Virus record (IMG/VR): IMGVR_UViG_3300006028_000001
Coordinates: 1-64,000 of that record
Reading direction: 5' to 3' (one strand)
Length of the DNA: 64,000 nt
DNA from: a virus
In this document: positions 1,862 to 17,292 of the stretch, piece by piece
How the letters are laid out: each line of letters opens with the position of its first letter
Position numbering within the stretch: the stretch's first letter is position 1
Notes under the pieces: generated by a model
What the model was told of the DNA's origin: nothing
The model's input: the letters and a program-made list of their open reading frames with translations, nothing else
Databases searched by the model: none
Translations under genes and position numbers: made by a program

Positions 1862-2412
1862 TGACGAAGGCACTTGTCGGCCCGGTCCCGTCGGTGCGGT
1901 TCCGCGACGGCACGAAGATTGCCTACCAGCCACCCCGCGACACAGCCGACGGCGACCGCTGGTCCAACTGCCAGGAACACCGCGTGGCGTGCGACTGCCG
2001 CGAGGCTGAGCTGGCCGAGCAGATCGCCGAACTGCGTAGCGAGCTGAAGGCGGCGCAGGATGCGGCACGTCGAATCCTGCAAGGCCACGCCACCTACGCC
2101 TACGAGAACAGCCCCACCGCCGGCGACGGCGGCCGGCCGATTGGGTGCATGTGCACGGGCTGTCAGATCGCCCGTGACGCCTACCTGCTCCGGCACTCCG
2201 AGGCCGATTCGCATGCGCGTGACCAGGTCGACGGCCTCGCCGAGGACCAGATCGCACAGGGGTGGCGGTGGAGACCGTTCTTTGGCCACGCCGGCCCGGA
2301 GTGCCTCGGCGCGCTGATCCGGTACCGCGACCAGTCCCGCTACCACGAGCACATCGTCCGCCCTGATGGGTCGCTGGTTGAGGACCCGGACCCGATTGAG
2401 GTGCCTTTCTGA
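1861..2412 (+). CDS. hypothetical protein, Cys-containing with coiled coil
   Basis: 183 aa, starting at the ATG that overlaps the RDF stop codon. A short coiled-coil stretch (EAELAEQIAELRSELKAAQDAARR, about residues 43-66) is preceded by CDC and followed by CMCTGC near residue 97, suggesting a metal site. No family is recognised. Translationally coupled to the RDF upstream and the exonuclease downstream, so probably part of the same recombination operon. Confidence 0.7.
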   Translation: MTKALVGPVPSVRFRDGTKIAYQPPRDTADGDRWSNCQEHRVACDCREAELAEQIAELRSELKAAQDAARRILQGHATYAYENSPTAGDGGRPIGCMCTGCQIARDAYLLRHSEADSHARDQVDGLAEDQIAQGWRWRPFFGHAGPECLGALIRYRDQSRYHEHIVRPDGSLVEDPDPIEVPF

Positions 2413-3305: not shown

Positions 3306-3529
3306 CCGGCCCGGAGCATCTGACCTGGTGTGTCAACCGCGCCATGGAGCGCGCCGACGCCGGCGGCATGGACCAGGCGTGGGTGTCGTTCACCCAGAAC
3401 CTTCGGCGGCATCCGGACACCGCGCACATCGCCGGCCACCCGATGCTGTCCATGGCGATGTGCTCCGGCGCGTTCAATGCCCCGACGGCGTTCCGCAGCT
3501 TCATCAGCGGATGGGCGGTGGCGGCGTGA
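3302..3529 (+). CDS. hypothetical protein
   Basis: 75 aa, ATG overlapping the exonuclease stop (ATGA). Mostly helical, with conserved-looking aromatic and His residues (HLTWCVNRAMERA, AFRSFISGW). No recognised domain. Its position in an unbroken chain of overlapping genes supports real translation. Confidence 0.6.
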   Translation: MTGPEHLTWCVNRAMERADAGGMDQAWVSFTQNLRRHPDTAHIAGHPMLSMAMCSGAFNAPTAFRSFISGWAVAA

Positions 3530-3924
3530 ACACTGCACCCGCCCGGGTCACCGTCGCCCGCAACATCCGCCGCCTACGGCAGGCCGCCGGTTGGACCCAG
3601 GATGAAGCCTGCGAGCGGCTGGCCAAACACGGCCACACATGGACCCGCAAAGCGTGGTCGCTGGCTGAACGCTCCGCCGACGACGCCCACCGGGCGCGGG
3701 CGTTCACCGCCGACGAGGTTGCCGCGCTGGCTGCCGTGTTCGAGGTGTCACCGGGTGACCTGTTCGACGCGCCCGTCACGTTCGCGCCGGCGGCCAACCG
3801 GCGCGGCGACGAACTGTGGCTGACGGCCGGCGGCACGGTCGAATGCGTCGGCGCGGACGACGCGCCGGGCGGCGACTGGGTGCGGCTGTACCGGCCGGCG
3901 AGGCAGAACGGGCCGAGCTCGTGA
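3526..3924 (+). CDS. Xre-type helix-turn-helix DNA-binding protein
   Basis: 132 aa, GTG start overlapping the previous stop. Residues 6-75 form an Xre/Cro HTH: VARNIRRLRQAAGWTQDEACERLA, then a recognition-helix region and VAALAAVFEVSPGDLFD, the usual end of the five-helix fold. The C-terminus is a short tail without known domain. It sits inside an operon rather than beside a divergent promoter, so it is more likely an auxiliary regulator than the main repressor. Confidence 0.8.
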   Translation: MNTAPARVTVARNIRRLRQAAGWTQDEACERLAKHGHTWTRKAWSLAERSADDAHRARAFTADEVAALAAVFEVSPGDLFDAPVTFAPAANRRGDELWLTAGGTVECVGADDAPGGDWVRLYRPARQNGPSS

Positions 3925-4049
3925 CCGGCGACGACCTGCTGCGCGCCTTCCGCCGCGCCGCCGCCCTGGAGCGTCGCCGCATCCTGCGCGGCCGGCCCGC
4001 GCGACGCCGACAACTGCTGCGCATCGCGAGGAAGGTAACCGGCCGATGA
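3921..4049 (+). CDS. small basic protein
   Basis: 42 aa, GTG start overlapping the Xre stop. Very Arg-rich helix (LLRAFRRAAALERRRILRG). Overlaps at both ends by 4 bp, which supports it as a gene despite its size; it may be a small nucleic-acid-binding protein, but this is only a composition argument. Confidence 0.5.
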   Translation: MTGDDLLRAFRRAAALERRRILRGRPARRRQLLRIARKVTGR

Positions 4050-4609
4050 GCATGCAAACTGCCCTGTTCGACATTGCCGCGCCGACACCGCCGAAGAAGA
4101 CGCCGAAGCGCCGCAGACCTGCCCCGGTTGTCGAACCCGCCCCGCCGACCGTCGCCACCACCGGCCGCACCTGGGTCATCACGTTCAACGCGCCCGCGCA
4201 GATGCTGTCGGTCAACTCCGGCAACCAGCACTGGCGCCGCACCTCGCCCATCCACAAGACGTGGCGGGAGGCGATGTACCTGCACGCCAAGGCCGCCAAG
4301 CTGCCAACCGGCCTGGCGCGGGTACGGCTCGACTTTGTACTCCGCTTCCCGCGTGCGGGTCGGATAGACGCCGGCAACTACTACACGCACGTCGTGAAGC
4401 CGTGTGTCGACGGCATCGGTCCGCCGATCGACAAGATGCGCGCCGGCAAACGCATCATCGCCGTCGGCTACGGGCTGATCCCTGACGACACCGCCGAATA
4501 CCTCGACGGCCCTCATGTGGTGCTGGGCGAACCCCACCGGGACAAGGCGGCACCGTACGGCCAGGTGGTCGTCACCATCACCGATCTGTCCGGAGCCAGC
4601 AATGGCTGA
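4046..4609 (+). CDS. RusA-like Holliday-junction resolvase
   Basis: 187 aa with a Pro/Lys-rich N-terminal tail (about 50 residues) before the domain. The domain shows the RusA pattern: NSGNQHWRR near the start, RIDAGNYYTHVVKPCVDGI carrying conserved Asp/Asn residues, and GLIPDDTAEYLDGPH, the motif with paired Asp that binds metal. RusA enzymes are homodimers that cut branched DNA during phage recombination or before packaging. Overlaps both neighbours. Confidence 0.8.
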   Translation: MSMQTALFDIAAPTPPKKTPKRRRPAPVVEPAPPTVATTGRTWVITFNAPAQMLSVNSGNQHWRRTSPIHKTWREAMYLHAKAAKLPTGLARVRLDFVLRFPRAGRIDAGNYYTHVVKPCVDGIGPPIDKMRAGKRIIAVGYGLIPDDTAEYLDGPHVVLGEPHRDKAAPYGQVVVTITDLSGASNG

Positions 4610-5066
4610 CCCATACATCGCCGCCGCCCGCAGCCGCTCCCACCTGGCCGCCCTGTGGCTGGCCAAACTGGCCACCGACGGTGTCGACATGCCGTCGCAA
4701 GTCCAGCAGTTTTTCACCTGCGACGTGCCGTACCTGCTTGCCCTCGCCCTACAGGACCGGCAGCCGACCAGTGCCTGCGAGGTGGTTGAAGCCACCCGCA
4801 CCGCGGACCTGCTCGCCCAGCTGGTCGACCTGGCCCGGCTCGCCAACGACGCCACCGAAACGTCCGCCGACCCGGCGCTGTGGCGGGCGCGGGAATCCGA
4901 CCTGCGGGAAGGGTTCGAGGCGTTGCCGCTGCGGCAGGTGCGCGCGTTGGCGGAGGTGGCGGTGCGGGCGCTGGCCGAAACCGGGTGGCCCGGCCCGGTC
5001 GCCGGCCCGAGCACCGAACAGGTGGTGCCGTGGTGGGCGCCGGAGTGGCGGGGGCCGGAACGGTGA
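4602..5066 (+). CDS. hypothetical protein
   Basis: 154 aa, ATG start overlapping the end of the RusA gene by 8 bp. Predicted mostly helical (several Leu/Ala-rich stretches, e.g. LAALWLAKLATDG, DLLAQLVDLARLANDA). Two Cys residues are too far apart for a zinc site. No family recognised. Confidence 0.6.
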   Translation: MADPYIAAARSRSHLAALWLAKLATDGVDMPSQVQQFFTCDVPYLLALALQDRQPTSACEVVEATRTADLLAQLVDLARLANDATETSADPALWRARESDLREGFEALPLRQVRALAEVAVRALAETGWPGPVAGPSTEQVVPWWAPEWRGPER

Positions 5067-5599
5067 CCGCCTGGACAGTGGTGGCCGCCACCGGACACCG
5101 ACCCCAGCATCTGCGGCCCGACAGCCACGAGTGGGTGCAGGCGCAGCTGCTGCGGATCGCGTTGAAGCTGCGCCGCGAATACAACACCGAGGTCGGCATC
5201 TCCGGCATGGCGCTGGGTGTCGACCAGTGGTGGGCCCGGGCGGTACTGGACGCCGAACTGGACCTGTGGTCGTACATCCCGTGTGAGCAGCAGGCCGACC
5301 GGTGGTCGGATGCCCAGCAGGCCGAATGGAAGCGGCTGCGGGCGATGGCAGTCAAGGAGCGAGTGTTCGGCGACTCCTACTCGCCACGTCTGCTGCACGC
5401 CCGCAACGACGGAATGATCGCCGACGCTGATGCGATGGTGGCGGTGCTGCGGCCCGGCAAGACGACCGGCGGCACCGCAAGCGCCGTGGAGAAGATCCGC
5501 ACCCGGCGCGTCCCGCACATCCTTGTCGACCTCGACGCCCGCACGGTACGGCTCGTCGCGTCGCCACTCTCGCTGGTCGTCGAGATTCCCGCGCGCTGA
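5063..5599 (+). CDS. SLOG-family (DprA/YspA-like, DUF1273-type) protein
   Basis: 178 aa, GTG start overlapping the previous stop. AATGHRPQ at residues 8-15, GISGMALGVDQWWAR near residue 47 and HARNDGMIADADAMVAVL near residue 112 are the hallmark loops of the Rossmann-like SLOG fold, which binds nucleotides or nucleotide derivatives. Phage copies are common in early operons; their substrate is unknown. The gene ends at the first of the repeated GCAACC/GACGTAG motifs. Confidence 0.75.
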   Translation: MTAWTVVAATGHRPQHLRPDSHEWVQAQLLRIALKLRREYNTEVGISGMALGVDQWWARAVLDAELDLWSYIPCEQQADRWSDAQQAEWKRLRAMAVKERVFGDSYSPRLLHARNDGMIADADAMVAVLRPGKTTGGTASAVEKIRTRRVPHILVDLDARTVRLVASPLSLVVEIPAR

Positions 5600-5600
5600 C

Positions 5601-5630
5601 GCAACCTCGCCGCGGCTCGCGACGTAGCAC
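5601..5630 (+). promoter_or_regulatory. bipartite promoter-like motif, copy 1
   Basis: GCAACC at 5601-5606 and GACGTAGCAC at 5621-5630, separated by 14 bases, directly after the SLOG stop codon and 36 bases before the ATG at 5666. One of seven copies with the same spacing; read as an ECF-type promoter (-35 GCAACC, -10 CGTA, 16 bases apart) or a protein-binding site. Confidence 0.6.
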
Positions 5631-5665
5631 ACACCACGAACATCCCTCGTAGCACGGAGATTGCC

Positions 5666-5968
5666 ATGCCTGACCTTGCCGTAAGAATCGACGACCAATA
5701 CGTGCCCCTGGCCGACTGTGACTGGGTGTTTCGGGAGCCGTGCGGCTGCCCGTTCGGCGTGATGTCCGCCGTCGCCCACTCCGGCCACATCATCGCCGCC
5801 GACGAAGGGGCGGCGTGGCAGGAGTTCTACGACACAGCCCGGGAACGCAACGCCGCCCGCAAGCAGGGCGTCACAGCCGAACTGATGACCCACGAGCGGT
5901 ACGGCCGCGAGGTCATGCCGCTGATGCGCGGCGGCTCCGGTCATGCCTGCGGCAAGGCGGTGGCGTGA
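5666..5968 (+). CDS. hypothetical protein
   Basis: 100 aa, ATG preceded by CACGGAG. Has a CGCPFG motif near residue 28, then a helical part and a C-terminal GHACG. First gene of a short operon driven by the motif at 5601-5630. No known domain. Confidence 0.65.
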   Translation: MPDLAVRIDDQYVPLADCDWVFREPCGCPFGVMSAVAHSGHIIAADEGAAWQEFYDTARERNAARKQGVTAELMTHERYGREVMPLMRGGSGHACGKAVA

Positions 5969-6576
5969 TGGCTGACCTGACCCTCACCGGCCCGTACTTC
6001 GAGACGTTCGCAATGGACGAGGACCACCCGACCGGCGGGGTGGGCTTCATTTGCTCCACGTGCCGCCGGGACGTGTCCACCGACCCGTGCCCCGACCACG
6101 CCCCCGTGGAGGTTCCCGGACTGGCGCTGGTCGAATGCGAGAAGACGCCGCGGCACTGGGCGTGGGTGCTCGCGTCCGACGCCAACGGCTACGGCATTCC
6201 CTGCTGGCAGTGCATCACCGAAGAGGACTCGGCGCAGCGTCGTGCAGCCGAGGACGCCCGCCACGGGCACTGGTCGCGCCGCTGGCGGTACTGGCCCGTC
6301 GCCCAGTGGACGGCGCGGCGGGCACGCAGCCTCGGCGTCATCGGCGGCTACGGCCTGGCCCTGGAGGACCGCGGCTGGCGGCTGTTCGGTGTCCGACTCA
6401 AGGGTCGCCGTGACTACATCCTCGGCGCGCCAAGGGAAACCTGGCACTGCTGGCTGATCGGCCACCATCGGCGCGGCGAACAGGTCGGCCCCGGATTCTG
6501 TGGCAAGTGCGTGCCGTGGCCGTGCTGCGGATCCATCCGGGTTGAGCACCAGCCGGGATGCCGCGACAACGCGTGA
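5968..6576 (+). CDS. Cys/Trp-rich hypothetical protein
   Basis: 202 aa. Start ATG overlaps the previous stop by one base. Three Cys clusters (CSTCRRDVSTDPC, CWQC, CGKC-x-x-CC) suggest two or three zinc-binding knuckles. The middle is very rich in Trp and Arg. No family recognised. The gene ends 4 bases before the second promoter-like motif. Confidence 0.65.
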   Translation: MADLTLTGPYFETFAMDEDHPTGGVGFICSTCRRDVSTDPCPDHAPVEVPGLALVECEKTPRHWAWVLASDANGYGIPCWQCITEEDSAQRRAAEDARHGHWSRRWRYWPVAQWTARRARSLGVIGGYGLALEDRGWRLFGVRLKGRRDYILGAPRETWHCWLIGHHRRGEQVGPGFCGKCVPWPCCGSIRVEHQPGCRDNA

Positions 6577-6580
6577 CGCC

Positions 6581-6610
6581 GCAACCTTCCGACCCACCTC
6601 GACGTAGCAC
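6581..6610 (+). promoter_or_regulatory. bipartite promoter-like motif, copy 2
   Basis: GCAACC at 6581-6586 and GACGTAGCAC at 6601-6610 with a 14-base spacer, 37 bases upstream of the ATG at 6648. The flank GC(A)ACCTTCCGAC is shared with copy 6. Confidence 0.6.
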
Positions 6611-6647
6611 CACATGACCCCAACCCGAACACCCTGGGGAGCCCCGC

Positions 6648-7055
6648 ATGACCCTGTACCTGTCCGACACGCGCCCCGAACCCGACACCGACCCGCAGCC
6701 CGACCCGATCGACAACGTGATCGTCGCGTGGCTGGCCGACCACGACGATCTGCCCGTCAAATACACCGACGGCACCAGCTGGTGGACCACCACGACCGCC
6801 GCCGACCGGTACGCCTGGTACGCACTCATCGAAGCCACCGGCGACGGCAAACTGCGCATCAGCGGCGCCGGACCCCGTTACGGCAGCCGCCGGCACACCG
6901 TCATCAGCGAACCCGTGGCCATGTCCGGGCGCCTCGCAACCTTCGGCGACGGAATCGTCTTCAACCAGATCCTCGGCGACGCCGTCCACGACACGCTCGC
7001 CGCCGTCACCCACGCCCACCGGGCCGCAACCCGCAGCCACCGGCGGCCGTCGTGA
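6648..7055 (+). CDS. hypothetical acidic protein
   Basis: 135 aa; ATG preceded by GGGGAG. N-terminal 25 residues are Asp/Pro-rich and acidic, followed by a compact-looking domain (YTDGTSWWTTTTAADRYAWYALIE). No recognised family. First gene of a three-gene overlapping operon (6648-7515). Confidence 0.6.
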   Translation: MTLYLSDTRPEPDTDPQPDPIDNVIVAWLADHDDLPVKYTDGTSWWTTTTAADRYAWYALIEATGDGKLRISGAGPRYGSRRHTVISEPVAMSGRLATFGDGIVFNQILGDAVHDTLAAVTHAHRAATRSHRRPS

Positions 7056-7255
7056 CCACCACCCTGTCCGACGCCGACCTGGACGTACTGCGGGCATACG
7101 CCGACGGCGAACACATCCCCGACATCGCCCTACGCCTCGGCGTCACCGTCGACGAAGCCGGCATCCGACTGGCCAACCTGTGCGGTGCGCACCGCGGCCA
7201 CGCCCAGGACATCGTGCACGCCCACCGCACCCGCAGCACCCGGAGCGCGCTGTGA
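7052..7255 (+). CDS. small helix-turn-helix protein
   Basis: 67 aa, GTG start overlapping the previous stop. LSDADLDVLRAYADGEHIPDIALRLGVTVDEAGIRLANLC resembles the tri-helical HTH of LuxR/sigma-70 region 4 proteins (helix, turn at LGVT, recognition helix). It lacks any other domain. Probably a small DNA-binding regulator; target unknown. Confidence 0.55.
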   Translation: MTTTLSDADLDVLRAYADGEHIPDIALRLGVTVDEAGIRLANLCGAHRGHAQDIVHAHRTRSTRSAL

Positions 7256-7515
7256 CGCTGACGCCCACCTTTCAACCACCCGGCCGGCTCGTGCCGTTGG
7301 AGGAACTGTTCCCCACCGGCGACTGCCCCGAATGCGGCGGCATCGGCATTCCGCTGTACGGCCGCCGCAAAGTCGGGCCACACGGGCAGCACGTCAGACG
7401 CGGCGACCGGGTCGTCGAATCCGACACGCCCTGCGACGGGGCCGGCGGGCCAACCGCCGAAGACCTTGAGGTGCCGTCGCGGCGGCAGCAGACCAAGAAC
7501 CAACCCACCGCCTGA
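7252..7515 (+). CDS. hypothetical protein with zinc-knuckle-like motif
   Basis: 87 aa, GTG start overlapping the previous stop. CPECGGIG near residue 24 and a later CDGAGG resemble half of a DnaJ-type zinc finger. Ends 14 bases before the SSB gene, with an AAAGGA Shine-Dalgarno in between. Confidence 0.55.
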   Translation: MTLTPTFQPPGRLVPLEELFPTGDCPECGGIGIPLYGRRKVGPHGQHVRRGDRVVESDTPCDGAGGPTAEDLEVPSRRQQTKNQPTA

Positions 7516-7529
7516 AAGGACCCATCGCC

Positions 7530-7970
7530 ATGTCCCTGCCCACCTTGAGCGGCGTCGGCCGGCTCATTGACGCTCCCGAGTTGCGCTTCACAAGCACCGG
7601 AAAAGCCGTGGCCAAGGTGCGTCTGGCCTTCAACTCCCGCAGGCGCAACGACGCGGGCGAATGGGTTGACGCGGATGTGTACTTCGTCGACGGCACGGTG
7701 TGGGACAAGCACGCCGAAAACGCCGCCGAGTCACTGAACAAGGGCGACGAGGTGATCGTTACCGGGCTGCTGAAGACCCGCAAGTACGAGACGAAGGACG
7801 GCGAGAAGCGCTCCGTCACCGAACTGGCCATCCAGTCCATCGGACCCTCGCTGGCGTTCGCCACGGCCAAGCCGCAGAAGGCGCAGCGTGGCGACGGGCC
7901 GAACGGGCGCAGCGGCGGCAACCAGTGGGCCGGCGCATCCGCGGTCAGTGACGAGGAGCCGCCCTTCTAG
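7530..7970 (+). CDS. ssb: single-stranded DNA-binding protein
   Basis: 146 aa. OB-fold N-terminal domain (residues 1-110: GVGRLIDAPELRFTSTGKAVAKVRLA, WDKHAENAAESLNKGDEVIVTGLL) and a Gly/Gln linker ending in the acidic tip DEEPPF, the site that recruits host or phage replication proteins. Length and layout match bacterial and phage SSBs. It lies in the replication block with the clamp and primase-helicase, so it likely coats phage replication intermediates. Confidence 0.95.
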   Translation: MSLPTLSGVGRLIDAPELRFTSTGKAVAKVRLAFNSRRRNDAGEWVDADVYFVDGTVWDKHAENAAESLNKGDEVIVTGLLKTRKYETKDGEKRSVTELAIQSIGPSLAFATAKPQKAQRGDGPNGRSGGNQWAGASAVSDEEPPF

Positions 7971-8018
7971 GCGGCACCGCACTGCAAACCCCACCGGTCG
8001 GCGCATAGGAGCAAAGAC

Positions 8019-8054
8019 GTGACCCTCACCATCCACACAGACACGCAGTCATGA
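8019..8054 (+). CDS. 11-codon leader ORF ahead of the methyltransferase
   Basis: GTG at 8019 with a strong AGGAG Shine-Dalgarno at 8007-8011 opens an 11-codon ORF (VTLTIHTDTQS) whose TGA overlaps the methyltransferase ATG as ATGA (8051-8054). The methyltransferase itself has no Shine-Dalgarno, so it is probably translated by coupling from this leader. The peptide may have no function of its own. Confidence 0.55.
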   Translation: MTLTIHTDTQS

Positions 8055-10039
8055 AGCGCAAGAGAGCCCGTCGCGTCGCCGAACACCGGCCCGCCAACCG
8101 TCGACGCCGATTTGCCCACGACGACCTGATCGCGGTCGACCTGTTCTCCGGATTCGGTGGCTTGACCCGGGGGATCGAAGCCGCCGGCTTCACGACGATC
8201 ATGGCCGCGAACCACAACGCGTACAAGGTGGAAGTCCACGAGCGGAACCACCCCAACGCCGAGCACTGGATTGCCGACCTGGTAGACCCGGACGCGTCGG
8301 ACTACCACTCCGCCGCCGACCTGCCGCCCGGCGACATCCTGGTGGCGGGGATCTCCTGCACCAACCACACACAGGCGAACACGAAGAAGGCGTACAAGCA
8401 GGGTCTGACCCTGTTCGACCTGCCGGAAGACGAGGAGTACGAGGAGCGGGTAACCCGCTCGGAGCGGGACCGGGCCACCGCGCTGTGCGTGCTCCAGTAC
8501 GCCGCGCGGCACCGTCCGCGGATGATCCTGGTGGAGTGCACGACCGAGTTCCAGTCATGGGGGCCGGCCCGCCAGGACAAGCCGAAGATCGGCGACGGCA
8601 GCACCTACCGGTGGTGGCTGCGGGAGCTGGCCAAACTCGACTACCAGCGCAAGATCCTGTTCCTCAACTCGCAGTTCTTCGGCGTCCCGCAGTCGCGTGA
8701 CCGGTGGTTCGGCGTGTTCTGGAACAAGGCCATACCCGCCCCGGATCTGGAGCACCGGCCGCTGTCGTGGTGCGGCCTGTGCGACGAGGTGCTGCCGGCC
8801 GTATGGACGTGGAAGACCGGCATCCCGCCGAGCGGGTCGGTGCGCTACGGCAAGCAGTACATCTACACCTGCCCACGCTGCCGCCGCGAGGTGGTCCCAC
8901 CGATGGCCCCCTCGATCGGCGCACTCGACCTGAGCAACCTGGGCACCCGCATCGGTGACCGCGTCAAGCCGCTCGCGCCGGCGACGATGGCCCGCGCCGA
9001 CCGCTGCCGGCAGCGGTTCGGGGAGTTCCCGGCCATCCTCATGCCCGCGAAGGCGACGCACGGCATCGAGCGGACCCCGTGGCAGCCGCTGGCGACCCAG
9101 ACCAGCCAGCAGGAGACCGCGCTGCCGTCCACCGGCGAACGGGCCACGGTGGCGGTCACCGGTGGTGTCATCGCCGCGCACCGGCACAACGGCGACGGCC
9201 AGCACCTCGGCCGGCCGATGGACACGGTGACGACCACGCCGGAGAAGGCGCTGCTACTCGCCGCGGTCGCGAACTTCCAGGGCTCCCCCCGCGGCGTGAG
9301 CGAGGCGCTGCCGACGCAGGGCGGGTCGGAGACGTTGGGGCTGCTGACCGCGCGGGTGTTGCCGAACCGTACGAACGGCACCAGCCGCCACTGGGGCGAG
9401 CCGATGGAGACCCTCGTCGGTAACGCCGGCTCCGGTGGCCTATCCATCCTGTCAACGGGGGTGGTGCCGCTCCGTAAGAAGGGCGCCCCGCGTGGCGTGG
9501 ACGAGCCGTTGCCGACGCAGGCCGGCACGGAAACCCTCAGCCTCCTGTCCGCGGGTGTCGTCCCGTTCAGGCGGAACACCGTTCCGACCGTCGCCACCGC
9601 TGAGGCCATGCCGACGGTCACCGCCGACCAAACGCCGGGCCTGCTCACCGCCGCCGGCATCATCAAGAACAACGGCTCGATCGAAGAGGCCGACTACCGT
9701 GCCCACCCGGTCACCGCACCGCTCGGTGCCGTGGTGGCGTCCGCGTCGAACCAGGCGCTGCTGACGTCCGGCTGGTGGGCCACGCAGACCGCAGAGGAGT
9801 GGCGACGGCGCATCAACGAGCTTCCCCTGGAGGACTGCTACTTCCGGATGCTCGGCCCACACGAGGTTGGCCGCGGGTGTGGGTTCGACGTCGACTTCCC
9901 CGACCACCAGGGCAGCTTCACCGTGTGGGGTAGCGCTCGCGATCAGGTCGACGGGTTCGGTAACGCCGTGTCGCCGCAGGTTGGGGAGTGGATCGGGAAG
10001 CGCCTCCGTGCTGCGTTACACGGCGAGGTGCGGGCGTGA
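8051..10039 (+). CDS. DNA (cytosine-5) methyltransferase-like protein with internal repeats
   Basis: 662 aa. Motif I (DLFSGFGGLTRGIEAAGF, residues 30-47) binds S-adenosylmethionine; the VECTTEF loop matches motif VI, and the C-terminal GFGNAVSP matches motif X. The catalytic loop reads GISCTNHTQAN with Cys103, so the usual Pro-Cys is Ser-Cys. A CGLC/CPRC zinc-like insertion (about residues 241-280) and six imperfect repeats of 30-36 residues (about 369-574) fill the target-recognition region. It probably modifies phage DNA to evade host restriction. Single gene, coupled to a leader ORF and followed by a promoter-like motif. Family is clear; activity is less certain because of the altered motif IV. 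Confidence 0.85.
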   Translation: MKRKRARRVAEHRPANRRRRFAHDDLIAVDLFSGFGGLTRGIEAAGFTTIMAANHNAYKVEVHERNHPNAEHWIADLVDPDASDYHSAADLPPGDILVAGISCTNHTQANTKKAYKQGLTLFDLPEDEEYEERVTRSERDRATALCVLQYAARHRPRMILVECTTEFQSWGPARQDKPKIGDGSTYRWWLRELAKLDYQRKILFLNSQFFGVPQSRDRWFGVFWNKAIPAPDLEHRPLSWCGLCDEVLPAVWTWKTGIPPSGSVRYGKQYIYTCPRCRREVVPPMAPSIGALDLSNLGTRIGDRVKPLAPATMARADRCRQRFGEFPAILMPAKATHGIERTPWQPLATQTSQQETALPSTGERATVAVTGGVIAAHRHNGDGQHLGRPMDTVTTTPEKALLLAAVANFQGSPRGVSEALPTQGGSETLGLLTARVLPNRTNGTSRHWGEPMETLVGNAGSGGLSILSTGVVPLRKKGAPRGVDEPLPTQAGTETLSLLSAGVVPFRRNTVPTVATAEAMPTVTADQTPGLLTAAGIIKNNGSIEEADYRAHPVTAPLGAVVASASNQALLTSGWWATQTAEEWRRRINELPLEDCYFRMLGPHEVGRGCGFDVDFPDHQGSFTVWGSARDQVDGFGNAVSPQVGEWIGKRLRAALHGEVRA

Positions 10040-10072
10040 ACCCGAACCCCGCCGAACTTTCCGCCGCCGGAC

Positions 10073-10102
10073 GCAACCCCAGACGTGGGCGTGACGTAGC
10101 AC
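10073..10102 (+). promoter_or_regulatory. bipartite promoter-like motif, copy 3
   Basis: GCAACC at 10073-10078 and GACGTAGCAC at 10093-10102, 14-base spacer, 31 bases upstream of the sliding-clamp ATG. Confidence 0.6.
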
Positions 10103-10133
10103 CACCCAGCCCACCCATCACGAGAGGACCCTC

Positions 10134-11300
10134 ATGCCCGCCACGACCATCGCCCCACCCGGCCTGAAGTTCCGCGTCGAACGCGACGCCCTGGCCGACG
10201 CCGTGGCGTGGACCGCCAAGTCCCTGCCCACCCGACCGCAGGTGCCGGTCCTCGCTGGGGTGCTGCTGCGGGTCACCGATGGCACCCTCACGGTGGCTTC
10301 GTTCGATTACGAGACCTCCAGCGAAACGACGCTCGGCGTGCACTCCGACGCCGACGGCGCCGCGCTGGTGTCCGGACGCCTGCTCGCCGAAATCACCAAG
10401 GCACTGCCGGCCAAACCGGTCGATGTCGAGGCGCATGGCACCCACCTGGGACTCGTCTGCGGCAGCGCGCGTTTCACCCTGCCGACGATGCCCGTCGAGG
10501 ACTACCCGGCACTGCCCGACATGCCCGCCCCCGCCGGCACGGTCGACGCGGCCACCTTCGCCTCGGCGGTCGCCCAGGTGGCGGTCGCCGCCGGCCGCGA
10601 CGACACCCTGCCCATCCTCACCGGCGTCCTGCTCGAACTGGCCGGCTCGACGATGACACTGCTCGGCACCGACCGGTACCGGCTGGCGCTGCGCGAACTG
10701 CCGTGGCAGCCCGAGCAGCCGGGCACCGACCTGCGCGCCCTGGTGCCGGCGAAGGTGCTCGCCGACACCGCCAAGACACTCGGCCCGGTCGGCGGTGACG
10801 TCACCGTGGCCCTCTCGCGGGACAACGCCACCGCGGGCAACGGCATGGTCGGCTTCGCCGCCGGCACCCGCCAAACCACCTCCCGGCTGCTCGACGGCGA
10901 CTTCCCCAAAGTGCGGACCCTGCTGCCCACCAGCCACAACGCTCGCGCCCGCATCCCGGTGGCCGCACTCGTCGAGGTGGTCCGCCGGGTCGCGCTCGTC
11001 GCCGACCGGGCCACACCCGTGCGGCTGTCGTTCAGTACGGACGGCCTGGTCGTGGAGGCCGGCGGCAGTGAAGACGCGCGGGCGAGCGAAGCCACCGACG
11101 CCGCGTACGAGGGCGAGCCGATGACGGTGGCGTTCAACCACGGCTACCTGCTCGACGGGCTTGCGTCGCTGCATGCCGAGACGGCGGTGCTGTCACTGAC
11201 CGAGCCGCGCAAACCGGCGCTGCTCAACCCCGCCGACGGCGACGGCAACCCGGACAGCAGCCACCACTACATGCTCATGCCGATCCGCATCGGCGGCTGA
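10134..11300 (+). CDS. dnaN: DNA polymerase III beta-type sliding clamp
   Basis: 388 aa, the usual length for bacterial DnaN. Three repeated clamp domains can be followed: domain 1 begins KFRVERDALADAVAWTAKSLPTRP, domain 2 has TDRYRLALRE, and domain 3 ends with YMLMPIRIGG, the typical C-terminus lining the hydrophobic partner pocket. It would form a ring tethering the polymerase. GAGAGGACC precedes the ATG. A phage-encoded clamp suggests the element redirects host DNA polymerase III or a phage polymerase outside this window. First gene of an operon running to about 12769. Confidence 0.92.
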   Translation: MPATTIAPPGLKFRVERDALADAVAWTAKSLPTRPQVPVLAGVLLRVTDGTLTVASFDYETSSETTLGVHSDADGAALVSGRLLAEITKALPAKPVDVEAHGTHLGLVCGSARFTLPTMPVEDYPALPDMPAPAGTVDAATFASAVAQVAVAAGRDDTLPILTGVLLELAGSTMTLLGTDRYRLALRELPWQPEQPGTDLRALVPAKVLADTAKTLGPVGGDVTVALSRDNATAGNGMVGFAAGTRQTTSRLLDGDFPKVRTLLPTSHNARARIPVAALVEVVRRVALVADRATPVRLSFSTDGLVVEAGGSEDARASEATDAAYEGEPMTVAFNHGYLLDGLASLHAETAVLSLTEPRKPALLNPADGDGNPDSSHHYMLMPIRIGG

Positions 11301-11329
11301 CCCACCACCAACCCGAAAGGACCCAGCCC

Positions 11330-11986
11330 GTGATTACCCTCCCGACCTGTGAACTGACCGGCATCCTCAACGACACCATCCCGTTCGCGTTGGACGACCC
11401 CGAATACCCCGAGTGGAATTGCATCCGCATCTGCTGGGACGGCGACCAGCTCCACACCCAGGCCCGCGACGAGGCACACGCCGCCTGGTCCCGCTGGCAC
11501 CCCGATGACGACCCCGACCAGGGGTCGGCCCAGGAATCCCTGCTTGAACCGTACGGCGGCGACGACCAACCGTGGACCGTCGTCATCCGCCTAGCCGACG
11601 CCAAAGCCCTCACCAAGATGCACAAGGTCGACAAGAAGCAGATGTTCGCCCCCGTCGCCATCGGCGAAGACGCCGGCAACCTGCGGGTGCACCGCAACCG
11701 GCAACCCGGCCTGATGGCCATCACCACCACCATCGAAGGCCAGGAGGTCAAATTCCCTGACCTGGCCGCGGTTGTGACGCAGCACGACCGGGCCGACGCC
11801 GTACGCACTATCGCATTCACCCCCGGGCTGATCGCCCACTTCGGCCAGGTCCGCCCCCGCGGTCCGATGGAGGTCACCTTCACCGGGCAGCGTGGGCCGG
11901 CGATCGTTGCCATCGGAGACCGGTTCACCGGGCTCATCCAGCCGGTGCGGGCCGCAGTCGAGCAGGGTTTGAAGGCGGTGGCGTGA
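11330..11986 (+). CDS. hypothetical protein, possibly clamp-related
   Basis: 218 aa, GTG start after AAAGGAC. No confident family. The last 50 residues (FTPGLIAHF..., MEVTFTGQRGPAIVAIGDRFTGLIQPVR) look like the final strands of a clamp domain, where VTF...PAIVAI...IQPVR resembles DnaN's C-terminal edge. With the true clamp immediately upstream, it may be a diverged clamp-like or clamp-partner protein. This is a weak, by-eye similarity. Confidence 0.6.
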   Translation: MITLPTCELTGILNDTIPFALDDPEYPEWNCIRICWDGDQLHTQARDEAHAAWSRWHPDDDPDQGSAQESLLEPYGGDDQPWTVVIRLADAKALTKMHKVDKKQMFAPVAIGEDAGNLRVHRNRQPGLMAITTTIEGQEVKFPDLAAVVTQHDRADAVRTIAFTPGLIAHFGQVRPRGPMEVTFTGQRGPAIVAIGDRFTGLIQPVRAAVEQGLKAVA

Positions 11987-12324
11987 TGGCCGACCCGACG
12001 GAAATCCAACGCGGCCACGCCCACAAGGCCACCGTCGTCGCCGTCGCCGAACGACACTGGTCTGACCCGATCCCGGACGAATTCCTGGCGCTGTTTGAGG
12101 CGGCCGGGCTGGTCATCGACGACAACGACCACACCGTCATTGCCTACCGTCACGGCCGGAAGATCGGCGCCGTGTGGGGTCCGGCCGTAGAAGGCCACTG
12201 GTTCGCCTACCGCAGCGACACCCCCTGCGCGACCTTCCCTGACCATGGTCAACAAGCCCGGCGGGTTGCCGACCGGGACGAAGGACTGCGTCACCTGCTC
12301 GACACGGAACAGGCGGCTACGTGA
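11986..12324 (+). CDS. hypothetical protein
   Basis: 112 aa; ATG overlaps the previous stop by one base (an in-frame GTG lies 3 bases upstream). Acidic, with a beta-rich middle (TVIAYRHGRKIGAVWGPAVEGHWFAYR). No family recognised. Confidence 0.6.
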   Translation: MADPTEIQRGHAHKATVVAVAERHWSDPIPDEFLALFEAAGLVIDDNDHTVIAYRHGRKIGAVWGPAVEGHWFAYRSDTPCATFPDHGQQARRVADRDEGLRHLLDTEQAAT

Positions 12325-12599
12325 CGACCGCCCCGTACCGCGTCGACGAGCGCCACACCATCCGCTACACCCTGCCCGGCAACACACCCGCCCCGGTCGG
12401 GGACCTCACCGCCGCCCTCGCAGATGCGCAACGCGACTACTGCGCCCGCAACCGATGCGCACCCGACCGCCTGCCGCACGACTGGGCGCAGGTGCGCGTC
12501 CAGGACGGGCACATCGTCATCACCTTCACCGTCGGGGCGGCGCCGCGGGTCGTCGACAGCAACGCGGCCACGCAGATCATGCCGCGGGTCCTCGGATGA
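12321..12599 (+). CDS. hypothetical protein
   Basis: 92 aa, GTG start overlapping the previous stop. Ends in a beta-hairpin-like stretch (VRVQDGHIVITFTVGAAPRVVD). No recognised domain. Confidence 0.55.
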   Translation: MTTAPYRVDERHTIRYTLPGNTPAPVGDLTAALADAQRDYCARNRCAPDRLPHDWAQVRVQDGHIVITFTVGAAPRVVDSNAATQIMPRVLG

Positions 12600-12769
12600 C
12601 ACCCGGACCGGCACCGGTGCCGCACCCCGTCTACCCGACCGGCGGCCGGTGCCGCCACCGGCGTGACCCGTGCCCCGACTTCTGGTGCGGGCTCGCCGGA
12701 CGGGTGGCGGGCCGGGATCCGGCACATCCGGGCGACGGCGGCGCAACCCCGGCGGGCGGCGCGACGTAG
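12596..12769 (+). CDS. small Cys-containing protein
   Basis: 57 aa, ATG overlapping the previous stop. Short Cys/His cluster (CRHRRDPCPDFWC). Its TAG stop codon lies inside the GACGTAG half of promoter-like motif copy 4, so the gene end and the regulatory site share bases. Confidence 0.45.
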   Translation: MTPGPAPVPHPVYPTGGRCRHRRDPCPDFWCGLAGRVAGRDPAHPGDGGATPAGGAT

Positions 12770-12772
12770 CAG
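12743..12772 (+). promoter_or_regulatory. bipartite promoter-like motif, copy 4
   Basis: GCAACC at 12743-12748 and GACGTAGCAG at 12763-12772, 14-base spacer. Lies within the 3' end of the preceding small ORF and 40 bases upstream of the ATG at 12813. Confidence 0.55.
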
Positions 12773-12812
12773 GTGGTGGCCAACAACCCGATCAAGGAGA
12801 CCGGAACTGCTT

Positions 12813-12986
12813 ATGAACGCGTCCGACGCAGAACCCCGCACGCGGCAGCGACCTCGGATCGTCCCAGCCGGAGAACGATACGGGCGCCTCGTAACAACCA
12901 CGACGCGCCTCGCTGGCGAGCCGCACGTCGAGGCGCGACCAGGTGTTCGCCGGCGCCGGGATACCGCGCAGCGCGCGGCTGATTGA
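12813..12986 (+). CDS. short protein resembling the start of an AP2/HNH-type protein
   Basis: 57 aa, ATG with AAGGAG about 15 bases upstream. IVPAGERYGRLVTTTTRL resembles the first strands of AP2-type DNA-binding domains found in phage HNH endonucleases, but the Cys-rich continuation is missing and the rest is Arg-rich. A second open frame at 12943-13053 carries a more protein-like acidic end, so this may be a frameshifted or decayed gene. Confidence 0.35.
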   Translation: MNASDAEPRTRQRPRIVPAGERYGRLVTTTTRLAGEPHVEARPGVRRRRDTAQRAAD

Positions 12987-13053
12987 AGACGACGGGCAGG
13001 ACGACGGGCAGGGGACCTTGTTCGACATCGACGAGAGCGGAGGCGGGCGGTGA
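12943..13053 (+). CDS. short acidic ORF with clamp-binding-like motif
   Basis: 36 aa from a GTG, overlapping the next gene by GTGA. The frame is open back to a stop at 12892. The end (ARLIEDDGQDDGQGTLFDID) is acidic and holds QGTLF, which fits the Q-x-x-L-F clamp-binding pattern. Could be the C-terminus of the 12813 gene after a frameshift, or an independent small ORF. No good Shine-Dalgarno. Confidence 0.3.
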   Translation: MFAGAGIPRSARLIEDDGQDDGQGTLFDIDESGGGR

Positions 13054-13259
13054 CCGGGCAGCGCAACCCGCCCGCCTGCAGCCACTGGCTCAGCGGCACG
13101 CGGCGGCACTGCGGCAACCCGGACACCCGGCTGTACCTGGTCGGCCACCGGTGCGCGGAGCACACGCCGGCGCGGTTGGCCGGGCATCCGGAGCCGGTCA
13201 CCGAGGCGCTCGGCGCCATCCAGCGCAACACCGCAACCTCAACCGCGAACGCGACGTAG
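13050..13259 (+). CDS. small Cys/His protein
   Basis: 69 aa, GTG start. CSHWLSGTRRHCGNPDTRLYLVGHRCAEH holds spaced Cys/His residues consistent with one zinc site, a pattern often seen in small actinophage proteins. As with the gene at 12596, its TAG stop is part of a GACGTAG motif (copy 5). Confidence 0.55.
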   Translation: MTGQRNPPACSHWLSGTRRHCGNPDTRLYLVGHRCAEHTPARLAGHPEPVTEALGAIQRNTATSTANAT

Positions 13260-13262
13260 GAG
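13233..13262 (+). promoter_or_regulatory. bipartite promoter-like motif, copy 5
   Basis: GCAACC at 13233-13238 and GACGTAGGAG at 13253-13262, 14-base spacer. Only 6 bases separate it from the GTG at 13269. If it is a promoter the transcript would be nearly leaderless; the GGAG inside the motif could also act as the ribosome-binding site. Confidence 0.5.
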
Positions 13263-13268
13263 TCCGAC

Positions 13269-13730
13269 GTGACCAACACGATCAGCACCGTCGAAGACGG
13301 CACGCCGTTCTCCCGTGCGCTCGACGCAGACTGGGCCGCCACCCTCGACAGCCTCAAGGTGCGCTGGACGTACGAGCAGGGTGTCTTCCATCTGTCGGAC
13401 CAGAACGTGTGGGCCGCGGTTGGCACACCCGACGTGGCGCTTCCCTCTGGGGATCGCGACGACGTGCGCGACCCGATGTCCATCCACCTGCTCGCCCCCG
13501 ACCCGGACGGCATGGCCACCTGGGCCGGCGCCAACCCGGCGCAGGACCTCATCCTCACGCACTGCCCCGCATGCGACGGACACACCTTCATGGACGTCAA
13601 TGGCGCCTGGCAGTGCCGAATCTGCCACCACGGCGGCCGCGGCAACGACAACAAGTTCTGGCGCAAGGAGCACTACCGACCGGGTGAACTGCTGTTCATC
13701 CGGGCAACGGCTCTCGGCGAGCGCCCATGA
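13269..13730 (+). CDS. hypothetical protein with zinc ribbon
   Basis: 153 aa, GTG start. A zinc-ribbon-like pair, CPAC near residue 99 and CRIC near residue 117, separated by 14 residues. N-terminal part without known domain. Overlaps the primase-helicase start by ATGA, suggesting co-translation and a possible accessory role in replication. Confidence 0.65.
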   Translation: MTNTISTVEDGTPFSRALDADWAATLDSLKVRWTYEQGVFHLSDQNVWAAVGTPDVALPSGDRDDVRDPMSIHLLAPDPDGMATWAGANPAQDLILTHCPACDGHTFMDVNGAWQCRICHHGGRGNDNKFWRKEHYRPGELLFIRATALGERP

Positions 13731-15694
13731 CCCGGGCCATCCAGTCCGCCACGGCGTTCCAGCGCGTCCTCGACGCACTGGCCGCCGTCACCGGCATGAG
13801 CCCGAAAGGCTCCGGACGCCAACGCAGCAGCCGATGCCCCGCCCACCACGACAACAGCCCCAGCCTGTCCATCACCGACGGCAACGACCGGGTCCTCATC
13901 AAATGCCACGCCCAATGCGACCTCGACGACATCCTCGCCGCGCTGCAACTCACCCGGGCCGACCTGTTCAACGAACCTCGCGAACGCGGCCACGCTCACA
14001 TCAACGGCACCAAGCCGGCAGTCGTCGCCGAATACCCGTACCTCGACGAACGGGGCCAAGTGCTATTCGTCGTGGAACGCAAGCAGCCCAAGACATTCGT
14101 ATGCAAACGCCCCGACGGCCGCGGCGGCTGGATCTACAAGGGCGCGATGGAGGGCGTGCGGAGGGTCCTCTACCGGCTGCCCGAAGTGGTCGCCGCTGTC
14201 AAAGCTGGCCAGCTCGTGTACGTCGTCGAGGGAGAAAAGGACGCCGACCGGCTCGCCGGACTCGGCCTGGTCGCCACCTGCAACCCGCACGGCGCCGGCC
14301 CCGGCAAGTGGCGTGACGACTATGCCCAGGCCCTACTTGGGGGCGAGGCGGTCGTCGTAGCCGACCGGGACGATGCCGGCCGCGCCCACGCCCGGATCGT
14401 CGTCGACAGCCTCCGACGCGCCGGCGTCAAAACCCATCTCGCGGAGCCGGCCTACGGCAAAGACGTATCCGAACACCTGGACTCCGGGCGCGACGTCGTC
14501 GACCTGATCACCATTGAGGGTGCGGGCGACGCCCCAACCGGCGGCGACGGCGGCGGGACGGAACTCACACCGCTGGTCGAACGCGAACTGCAGCGGCGGC
14601 GGGCAACCGCCGAAGCCGACCGCATCTTCGCCGTCGAGGTTGCCGAACGCGCCAAGAAAGACCTGTCCGAACTGCCCCGCGTCATGGACGGCGGCCAATT
14701 CCTTCTTGAAACCGATCCGCTCCCCGCGGCCATGTGGGGGGAGGGCGGCGACGTCCTGTGGGCGCGCGGCGAAGCACTCGTCATCGCCGGGCCGCAAGGT
14801 GTTGGCAAAACCACTCTGGCGGGCATGCTGCTACGTGCGACCGCCGGACTGCTGGACAAGGTACTTGGCTTTCCCGTGCAGGGTTGCGAACACCGGGTCG
14901 GGTATTTGGCCATGGACCGGCCGGAGCAGGCTCGCCGAAACCTGGGCCGCATGTTCACCGAGGAGGAACGGCCCGCGCTCGAAGAGTTCCTGCGATTCTG
15001 GACCGGCCCACCACCCACGGATGTCGCGGCCGAACCTGAGACCCTGCTGCGTTTGGCGCAGCAGATGGACGTCGACGTGCTGTTCGTCGACTCCTTGAAA
15101 GACGCCGCCGTCGGCCTGTCCAAGGACGAGGTCGGCGCCGGCTACAACCGGGCGCGGCAGCTATGCCTCGCCGAAGGCATCCAACTGGTTGAGCTGCATC
15201 ACATGGTCAAGAACGGCGCGGACGGGAAAGCCCCGAAGCAGCTTCGTGACGTGTATGGCTCCACCTGGATCACCTCCGGCGCCGGCTCGGTGATCGTCCT
15301 GTGGGGCGACGCCGGTGACCCGATCGTCGAGTTCCACCACCTGAAGCAGCCGATGAACGAGGTCGGGCCCTTCAAGATCATGCACGACCGGGCCACGGGG
15401 TTGGCTTCCGTCTACCACGACGAGGAAACCGACCTGGTTGCCCTGGCTCGACGGTGCGCAAGCGGTGGCGTCTCAGCGCGCGATGCCGCCACCTGCCTCT
15501 ACGACACCGAGAAGCCGAGCAAGTCTCAGGTTGAGAAGGCCCGGCGCAAGCTCGACGACCACACCGAGAAGGGTCTGCTGGTTCGCCGGCCGCCGTCCGA
15601 CGGGTCGGTGGTTGGTCGCGGCGCGGCGGACCTGTGGTACCCGGCCGCTCCGAATCAGTGGATCGAAGGCGAGTGGACGGAGCGGTACCGATGA
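13727..15694 (+). CDS. bifunctional primase-helicase (CHC2 zinc finger, TOPRIM, RecA-like ATPase)
   Basis: 655 aa. A CHC2-type zinc finger lies at residues 37-64 (C37, H40, C60, C64). A TOPRIM primase core follows: the catalytic Glu in VVEGEKD at 168 and the VVADRDDAGRAH acidic motif near 210. Residues 340-580 are a RepA/AAA-25-like hexameric ATPase with Walker A GPQGVGKTT (about 355-363), Walker B VDVLFVDSL and ELHHMVK. The C-terminus looks like a winged helix. It would unwind the phage fork and lay down primers. Repeats likely forming an origin begin about 75 bases after it. Confidence 0.9.
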   Translation: MTRAIQSATAFQRVLDALAAVTGMSPKGSGRQRSSRCPAHHDNSPSLSITDGNDRVLIKCHAQCDLDDILAALQLTRADLFNEPRERGHAHINGTKPAVVAEYPYLDERGQVLFVVERKQPKTFVCKRPDGRGGWIYKGAMEGVRRVLYRLPEVVAAVKAGQLVYVVEGEKDADRLAGLGLVATCNPHGAGPGKWRDDYAQALLGGEAVVVADRDDAGRAHARIVVDSLRRAGVKTHLAEPAYGKDVSEHLDSGRDVVDLITIEGAGDAPTGGDGGGTELTPLVERELQRRRATAEADRIFAVEVAERAKKDLSELPRVMDGGQFLLETDPLPAAMWGEGGDVLWARGEALVIAGPQGVGKTTLAGMLLRATAGLLDKVLGFPVQGCEHRVGYLAMDRPEQARRNLGRMFTEEERPALEEFLRFWTGPPPTDVAAEPETLLRLAQQMDVDVLFVDSLKDAAVGLSKDEVGAGYNRARQLCLAEGIQLVELHHMVKNGADGKAPKQLRDVYGSTWITSGAGSVIVLWGDAGDPIVEFHHLKQPMNEVGPFKIMHDRATGLASVYHDEETDLVALARRCASGGVSARDAATCLYDTEKPSKSQVEKARRKLDDHTEKGLLVRRPPSDGSVVGRGAADLWYPAAPNQWIEGEWTERYR

Positions 15695-15945
15695 GGACGA
15701 GTCCCACCACCTGTGTGCCCATCACCCGTTTGTGGGATGGATCGGGCAACGGTTCGGCGGACCCTCAAGAAGTCACGTTTGAAGCATCGAAGCGTGACTT
15801 TCTCCGTGACTTTTCTACCAGGGAAAACAGGGTTAAGTCACGGTCAACGCATCGAAGCGTGACTTTCTCTCGTGACTTCGTCCCAACATGTGGAAGAAGT
15901 CACGCCAAGAAGTCACGTTCGAGACATCGAAGCGTGACTTTCTAA
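15691..15945 (+). CDS. doubtful ORF encoded by the repeat array
   Basis: 84 codons from an ATG overlapping the primase-helicase stop (ATGA). From residue 27 on, the sequence only reflects the AAGTCACG repeats (KSRS..HRSVTF repeated). The overlap favours translation, but the repeats explain the open frame without it. Listed as a low-confidence possibility. Confidence 0.25.
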   Translation: MRTSPTTCVPITRLWDGSGNGSADPQEVTFEASKRDFLRDFSTRENRVKSRSTHRSVTFSRDFVPTCGRSHAKKSRSRHRSVTF

Positions 15946-15982
15946 TGTTTCCGCAGGTCAAAAAGTCACGCGGAAAGTCACG
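15770..15982 (+). repeat. iteron-like array of AAGTCACG sites (candidate origin)
   Basis: Eleven exact copies of the octamer: direct at 15770, 15835, 15897, 15910, 15963 and 15975, inverted (CGTGACTT) at 15793, 15805, 15858, 15871 and 15933. Three pairs form inverted repeats of exactly 31 bp (15770-15800, 15835-15865, 15910-15940) whose 15-bp centres share CATCGAAG. Extra half-sites sit 12-13 bp away. The block is visibly lower in G+C than its flanks, as expected for a melting region. It lies between the primase-helicase and the next operon, in a stretch of about 400 bases with no convincing gene. Confidence 0.85.
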
Positions 15983-15993
15983 CGATCTTGCTG

Positions 15994-16015
15994 CCGCCCC
16001 CCTAAAGGGGGGCGG
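15994..16015 (+). terminator. perfect 9-bp hairpin next to the repeat array
   Basis: CCGCCCCCC at 15994-16002 and GGGGGGCGG at 16007-16015 with a TAAA loop. There is no following T-run, so it may be a weak terminator for the replication operon or a structural element of the origin. Confidence 0.55.
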
Positions 16016-16094
16016 GAGGCGGCTGCCGGGATGTCCGAAATAGGCCACATACAACCAAGAGGATCCGGTAACAACCAGAAAGAGAAGAGCCCCC

Positions 16095-16325
16095 GTGCCC
16101 AAGCCCACCCCGCTCGGCGCCGCGCTGCCGGCCGCCATCGAACACATCACCGACCGGTCCGCAACGGAAGCAGGCGTCCGCGACGCCTGGTACACGTGGA
16201 TCACCCAGTACGACGTCACATCCGCCGCGATCATCCACGGCGCGATCAAAGAAGCCGTTACCGAATGGCTCAACCGGCACGGCCACGAAGTGTTCGCCAG
16301 TGACCCGGTAAGGCGCGCGTCGTGA
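16095..16325 (+). CDS. hypothetical protein
   Basis: 76 aa, GTG start after AGAAAGAGAAG. Helical protein (AIEHITDRSATEAGVRDAWYTW, IIHGAIKEAVTEWLNRHG). First gene beyond the repeat array; overlaps the next gene by 4 bp. No family recognised. Confidence 0.6.
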   Translation: MPKPTPLGAALPAAIEHITDRSATEAGVRDAWYTWITQYDVTSAAIIHGAIKEAVTEWLNRHGHEVFASDPVRRAS

Positions 16326-16537
16326 ACGGATATCCACACGTCCACCTGCGGATCTATCCCCTGACCTGGCGCATCCTGGCCCGCGGCGGCTGGTACCGCG
16401 CCGTGCCCTTCTTTGAGCTTGCCGACGTCGACCGGCTCGTAACGTTTCGTCGACGCGAATGGCTTGCCGGGATCACCGCCTCACGGCAGACGCCTTGGGT
16501 GCCCGGCGACACGGCTGCCTCGCAGGACCCGTCGTGA
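16322..16537 (+). CDS. hypothetical protein
   Basis: 71 aa, GTG start overlapping the previous stop. Aromatic-rich N-terminus (YPHVHLRIYPLTWRILARGGWYR). No family recognised. Its stop overlaps the HicA-like gene. Confidence 0.55.
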   Translation: MNGYPHVHLRIYPLTWRILARGGWYRAVPFFELADVDRLVTFRRREWLAGITASRQTPWVPGDTAASQDPS

Positions 16538-16743
16538 CGATCCCCCGCCCCTGGCGCCGCATCGCCGCCCACGCCGTCGCCGCCGGCTGGACGATCCGCC
16601 GCACCCGCCGCGGCCACCTGCTGTGGACCGCACCGGACGGCACCCGGGTGGTCACCGCCGGCACCCCGTCGGACTGGCGAAGCCTGCGCAACGACCTGGC
16701 GCAGCTGCGCAGGGCCGGCCTGACGGTCAGGGACGGGGTGTGA
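16534..16743 (+). CDS. HicA-like (YcfA-type) small protein
   Basis: 69 aa, GTG start overlapping the previous stop. The layout RRIAAHAVAAGWTIRRTRRGHLLWTAPDG...SDWRSLRNDLAQLRRAGL matches the double-stranded-RNA-binding fold of HicA toxins: helix, aromatic strand, the G-H strand carrying the catalytic His, and a C-terminal helix. HicA cuts mRNA. No HicB antitoxin follows; phage solo copies often have another use. Confidence 0.65.
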   Translation: MTIPRPWRRIAAHAVAAGWTIRRTRRGHLLWTAPDGTRVVTAGTPSDWRSLRNDLAQLRRAGLTVRDGV

Positions 16744-16790
16744 TCCATGAATGGTTGTGACCTGCGGCGCAACAAAATCCGCGCCGGGAC

Positions 16791-16820
16791 GCAACCTTCC
16801 GACGAGCCTCGACGTAGCAC
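16791..16820 (+). promoter_or_regulatory. bipartite promoter-like motif, copy 6
   Basis: GCAACC at 16791-16796 and GACGTAGCAC at 16811-16820, 14-base spacer; 38 bases upstream of the ATG at 16859. The 5' half and first spacer bases are identical to copy 2. Confidence 0.6.
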
Positions 16821-16858
16821 CCCGTGACCGCCCCTCCACCGCACCGGAAGTGACCAAG

Positions 16859-17110
16859 ATGATCACCAGAACGAAGCCCCCACCGGCCCGGTCCGCCATC
16901 GTCGAGCGCTACGCCGTCGCGATCCTGGTCGACGCGGTCGAGTGTCTGGATGAGGCCGACCTGGATCGGCTGCCGGATCCGCTGCCGAACCGGGAGGTGT
17001 ACCGGGCGGCGATCCGGCTGGCGCTGACGATGGCTGCGGCGATCCGCGCCAACCCGGGTGCGGTGCTGGCGCTGGTGCCGGCGTCCGGCGGGTCGGGGGC
17101 GGAGCTGTGA
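16859..17110 (+). CDS. hypothetical helical protein
   Basis: 83 aa. The ATG at 16859 has GGAAG 8 bases upstream; a GTG at 16850 is an alternative. Helical throughout, with no Cys-rich motif beyond one Cys. No recognised family. Confidence 0.6.
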   Translation: MITRTKPPPARSAIVERYAVAILVDAVECLDEADLDRLPDPLPNREVYRAAIRLALTMAAAIRANPGAVLALVPASGGSGAEL

Positions 17111-17292
17111 TGGGCGCCCCGCATGCACTCGCCGTGTCAGGAGCCAAGATCCGGCCTCAAATGTGCGCGCGGATGTTCGGACCGGTCCGACGCCGGATTT
17201 TCCGGCAGGCGGGTGCAACCCCTTGGCGATCCGCGACGTACCCACCCGTGACCGAACCCGCCAGCTCACCCAGGAGCCGTGAAATCCGATGA
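17110..17292 (+). CDS. doubtful small basic ORF
   Basis: 60 aa from an ATG overlapping the previous stop. The second half of the ORF covers promoter-like motif copy 7 and reads like non-coding sequence. Possibly real only in its first 30 residues, or not a gene. Confidence 0.25.
   Translation: MGAPHALAVSGAKIRPQMCARMFGPVRRRIFRQAGATPWRSATYPPVTEPASSPRSREIR
17215..17240 (+). promoter_or_regulatory. bipartite promoter-like motif, copy 7
   Basis: GCAACC at 17215-17220 and GACGTA at 17235-17240 (followed by CCC, so less complete), 14-base spacer; 48 bases upstream of the ATG at 17289. Confidence 0.5.

Follow-up and report, generated by a model that had tools for sequence, protein, structure and literature searches.

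The question raised by this locus is which factor reads the motif GCAACC-N14-GACGTA, which recurs in the early arm of a viral genome and resembles a promoter of the extracytoplasmic function (ECF) sigma type. The window, that is, the whole stretch of 64,000 nucleotides analysed, corresponds to bases 1-64000 of an IMG/VR record of 97,469 bases, so that window and contig numbering agree.

Occurrence of the motif

The seven copies listed in the original prediction are all exact at their coordinates, each with exactly 14 bases between the boxes. Across the whole 97.4-kb contig 12 exact copies were found, nine of them on the plus strand and the other three on the minus; beyond the seven, they comprise an eighth in-window copy at 518 and four copies outside the window (Table 1). 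First-order Markov sequences lead one to expect 0.0067 exact copies per genome, and none of 400 box-permuted control patterns gave more than one match. The same pair of boxes was absent from the contig at every spacing from 8 to 23 except 14, and matched once at spacing 24. In a motif-blind dyad search GCAACC/GACGTA was the first-ranked pair of the genome; the conserved inverted repeats of phiC31, used as a positive control, were recovered by the same method. A weight matrix built from eleven copies was used for a genome-wide scan with the reversed sequence as control, and yielded a one-mismatch copy at 79125 (GACGTG for GACGTA; 22.2 bits), which brings the total to 13 sites; the best genome site after it scored 10.0 bits, and the reversed controls peaked at 9.5. 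The motif is real and far above chance expectation. The motif is missing from the stretch between 17,241 and 73,482, about 56 kb that include the terminase, portal, head and tape-measure genes.

Promoter architecture

In ECF terms, the fixed positions correspond to a -35 GCAACC, a 16-bp spacer and a -10 CGTA, and all 12 exact copies show the ECF-type combination of a -35 AAC core and a -10 CGTN about 16 bp apart. Flanking preferences are a C 5' of the motif, a pyrimidine followed by C on the 3' side of GCAACC and, around GACGTA, a C in front and GCA behind. The continuation GACGTAGCAC, which had been ascribed to most copies, follows four of the seven listed copies; over the whole genome it follows 7 of the 12 exact ones.

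At 12 of the 13 sites a plausible start codon follows 10-48 bp further on, in the same orientation; the exception, at 518, lies in coding DNA and lacks the usual downstream context. For the seven listed copies, the distances between the motif end and the start codon come to, in order, 39, 41, 35, 44, 10, 42 and 48. Gene starts were taken from a simple gene caller and from direct reading; the ATGs at 12813 and 17289 were missed by the caller, and the earlier statement that every listed copy lies within 49 bases of the next start codon holds if both are true starts. Since the motifs at 13233 and 79125 end 10 bp from a start codon, leaderless or near-leaderless mRNAs are predicted there. ATGACC or GTGACC occurs just after the -10 at 6581, 16791 and 17215, where the predicted transcripts would begin close by; these could be short leaderless upstream ORFs.

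Table 1. Motif copies and control features of the phage genome (contig numbering).
Feature	Coordinates	Strand	Remarks
Exact motif copy inside nuclease gene; doubtful promoter	518..543	+	29.3 bits; CCAC follows; next start 136 bp off
Predicted ECF promoter 1	5601..5626	+	Start codon 5666; begins 2 bp past end of long first operon
Predicted ECF promoter 2	6581..6606	+	Start codon 6648
Predicted ECF promoter 3	10073..10098	+	Upstream of DnaN-like sliding clamp at 10134
Predicted ECF promoter 4	12743..12768	+	ATG 12813
Predicted ECF promoter 5	13233..13258	+	GTG 13269; primase/helicase gene next at 13727
Predicted ECF promoter 6	16791..16816	+	ATG 16859
Predicted ECF promoter 7	17215..17240	+	ATG 17289
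Predicted promoter outside window	73483-73508	-	Exact motif
Predicted promoter outside window	76559-76584	-	Exact motif
Predicted promoter outside window	79125-79150	+	GACGTG variant
Predicted promoter outside window	80582-80607	+	Exact motif
Predicted promoter outside window	89863-89888	-	Exact motif
Tyrosine integrase	91656-93017
Divergent HTH protein	92997-93431
Repressor-type control region	93553-93630
Predicted immediate-early operon incl. ECF sigma gene	From ATG 93630 through join to 5599	+	Window part 42..5599
ECF sigma gene	Start 95074, domain part to ~95595	+	Pfam Sigma70_r2 + r4, E ~4e-12

A phage-encoded ECF sigma factor

A search of the genome flanks for a sigma factor, proposed with the original prediction, located a phage ECF sigma gene outside the window on the same contig. 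Within a 174-aa part, region 2 was placed at residues 26-87 and region 4 at 114-165, both over the Pfam cut-offs. The phmmer matches of this protein in the PDB are solved ECF sigma factors (best SigL, 6.8e-12), and it also matches the profile of PHROG 1740, 'RNA polymerase sigma factor', at 7e-16. It has the composition of the ECF (group 4) class, i.e. regions 2 and 4 and little else in about 170-200 aa. The sigma gene is without a stop codon of its own: its frame stays open for 418 codons (contig 95074-96330), running out of frame for about 300 nt over a membrane-protein ORF (95672-95968) and continuing in frame into a third gene. By codon-position GC, the sigma coding signal ends near 95.6 kb, where the membrane-protein ORF takes over in another frame. 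An assembly indel is a possible cause of the missing stop, as is an unusual C-terminus or odd fusion; the sigma domains lie upstream of the anomaly and are unaffected by it.

The ends of the record share a 70-bp direct repeat and it therefore closes into about 97.4 kb; once the repeat is joined, 2.3 kb separate the sigma start from window base 1, which lies downstream of it. The operon that contains it is preceded, 5' of ATG 93630, by a sigma70-like TTGACG-17-TACAGT overlapped by clustered CCAGTTCTGG-type repeats. Its first product is a Cro/CI-type HTH protein, and it also encodes small HTH proteins, a nuclease, a Gp3-like protein and a polymerase-type exonuclease; the promoter series opens at 5601, directly after the end of this operon. 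The weight-matrix scan detected no motif before the sigma gene itself, as expected if the sigma acts upstream of its regulon.

Other features of the genome were also noted. Eleven copies of AAGTCACG/CGTGACTT occupy about 210 bp at 15770-15983 and occur nowhere else in the genome; they lie after the primase/helicase gene in non-coding DNA of lower GC (55% vs 69.5%), and look like an iteron array, perhaps a replication origin. The portal protein (27630-30011; Pfam portal at 104-428) carries a C-terminal NUDIX hydrolase domain (616-736), and residues 783-1194, in the C-terminal part of the tape-measure protein (40702-44511), match a PHROG endolysin family. Near the end of the structural region, an 80-aa LuxR/GerE-type HTH protein (52460-52702) is a candidate late regulator. 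A weak Sigma70_r4 match at 52505 was rejected as a sigma, as it corresponds to the LuxR/GerE HTH.

Distribution of motif and sigma factor

Terminase relatives in IMG/VR reach 69-84% identity in the nearest group. Neither the exact motif nor Sigma70_r2 was found in 19 terminase-sharing contigs, four of which are 87-106 kb; these have the head module in common with the present phage and little of the early region. Sigma70_r2 was likewise not detected in 15 further contigs with DnaN homologues, nor the motif upstream of DnaN in the loci fetched from them. Motif array and sigma thus appear to be absent together in relatives, a co-absence weakened by the fact that several of the sigma-less contigs are fragments. 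Dyad analysis of four sigma-less relatives gave coding or repeat artefacts only.

A motif scan of IMG/VR returned single chance matches only, with 50 other viral contigs having exactly one copy each. No sigma relatives were retrieved from IMG/VR with a single-protein query; an alignment including actinobacterial plasmid ECFs gave six weak matches; the one read in detail is an ECF of cellular type with a long membrane-type gene after it. The search of GTDB genomes gave two distant MAG matches, and among catalogued phages there was none at E 1e-3 (tblastn), and with E allowed up to 10 the only matches were weak and partial. Upstream of the actinobacterial ECF homologues no motif-type site was recognisable. 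Neither the IMG/VR motif scans nor the IMG/VR and GTDB sigma searches revealed another phage that combines sigma and motif, so the sigma-motif pairing rests on one genome, which is its main weakness.

Which factor reads the motif

The motif is very probably the cognate promoter of the phage's own ECF sigma factor; binding and transcription are predicted from the presence of the array, of the ECF sigma gene in the same genome, and of promoter-like sites 5' of early genes on both strands.

Actinobacteria have many ECF sigma factors, which lends some plausibility to a host factor of the SigE-like, envelope-stress type as the reader of the motif; early genes would then follow host stress and the phage sigma would read something else. 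The original prediction had left the choice between such a host factor and a phage sigma outside the window, and had compared the motif with Streptomyces SigE-type promoters. The comparison is borne out at the -35 GCAACC and the 16-bp spacing, which equal those of Streptomyces sigma-E promoters, where an AAC core and 16-bp spacing are found, e.g. at the cwg operon (PMC6767563); AAC is also part of the -35 consensus of E. coli SigE and B. subtilis SigW (PMC6713349). It breaks down at the -10, where none of the 12 exact copies has the CGTC of the Streptomyces sigma-E regulon and all have CGTA. In nearly all sigma-E targets the element is CGTC: among the printed words of the regulon paper, 43 start with CGTC and one with CGTA, a count that reflects the hyphenated -10s of its promoter table (PMC6767563). 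Because of the CGTA -10, and because the array is missing from the sigma-less relatives, which have the same head genes, the phage branch is favoured; with a phage sigma of the right class also present, we regard reading by a host sigma as improbable.

Temperate phages scatter operators over their genomes, and phiC31 has many CCTACTCACGTGAGTAGG copies; binding by a non-sigma protein (activator, repressor or silencer), in the manner of the phiC31 inverted repeats and their repressor, was therefore weighed. The motif, however, is neither palindromic nor a direct repeat, and it is oriented to the next gene at promoter distance, whereas the operator-like (CI/Cro-type) palindromes of this phage differ from it and cluster at 93.55-93.63 kb; such binding is very unlikely. 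An RNA-level 5'-leader element (attenuator or RNA-protein binding site), which would fit the narrow range of distances 5' of start codons, is hardly credible, given that invariant boxes with a fixed-length variable spacer suit duplex-DNA reading, that two copies end too near the start codon (10 bp) for an ordinary leader element, and that Rfam has no match within the window.

Proposed transcription cascade

With the phage ECF sigma as the reader of the motif, the best model is the sigma cascade of a temperate actinophage, in which repressor-controlled immediate-early transcription leads to the ECF sigma and then to delayed-early promoters, an order of events that we infer. When the phage infects a cell or is induced, the host RNA polymerase, carrying its main sigma, would initiate at contig 93594, where operators overlap the promoter, and transcribe the immediate-early operon as far as 5599; this would supply the Cro-like protein, small HTH proteins, ECF sigma, nuclease, Gp3-like protein and exonuclease. 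The ECF sigma would then join the host core enzyme, with region 4 recognising GCAACC and region 2 CGTA, and the resulting holoenzyme would start about 9-10 bp after CGTA at some 12 delayed-early promoters, giving operons for the sliding clamp, the primase/helicase and accessory genes of both arms. The structural genes, without the motif, would be driven by something else. In this way the virus probably redirects the host transcription machine in a two-step programme.

It is likely that a temperate actinophage has here domesticated an actinobacterial ECF sigma, giving it a regulon of its own, about 12 near-identical promoters, and placing it directly under the lysogeny repressor, so that one switch would separate immediate-early from delayed-early genes; some delayed-early mRNAs may be leaderless, and the membrane-protein neighbour may act as a regulator. 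Early-gene regulation in actinophages is poorly mapped, and in this case one genome suffices to read off the regulator, its likely binding rule and its full set of targets. With one sigma and twelve promoters, a sigma cascade in a temperate actinophage becomes directly testable. The sigma and its promoters also form a compact candidate orthogonal set for high-GC bacteria, and the pair is well suited to showing how ECF region 2 tells CGTA from CGTC.

Comparison with known systems

Streptomyces phage VWB shares the early gene order int - cro-like - exonuclease - gp9 (Gp3-like homologue) - polymerase exonuclease, and phiC31 has an annotated sigma factor, gp12, which has no blastp match to the present sigma; the motif is absent from both genomes. 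Streptomyces phage Gilgamesh is also integrase-bearing and its gp92 is an annotated sigma of ECF-like size; however, gp92 is only 25% identical to the present sigma and was not retrieved as a homologue at E 1e-3, and a comparable motif array was not found in the Gilgamesh genome. The S. coelicolor sigma-E regulon shares the -35 GCAACC with its AAC core and the 16-bp spacing to a CGTN -10 (PMC6767563), but differs in its CGTC -10 and in being a cellular stress regulon with variable targets, whereas the phage copies are almost identical.

Another close parallel is with the phiEco32-like phages 7-11 (SaPh711_gp47) and phiEco32 (phi32_gp36), in which, as predicted here, a phage sigma steers host RNA polymerase to a few phage promoters; some records annotate the phiEco32-like proteins as 'RNA polymerase ECF sigma factor'. 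An experimental precedent is provided by phage 7-11, whose own sigma recognises the bipartite motif GTAAtg-(16)-aCTA, present at eight promoters (PMC8948821), and the present genome likewise holds both a sigma gene and a promoter set. Those phages have enterobacterial hosts, and their sigma promoters have other boxes and lie at late (and middle) genes. In contrast, the present phage is integrase-bearing, belongs to a high-GC host and has its predicted promoters only at early and accessory genes, with the sigma gene in the repressor-controlled first operon.
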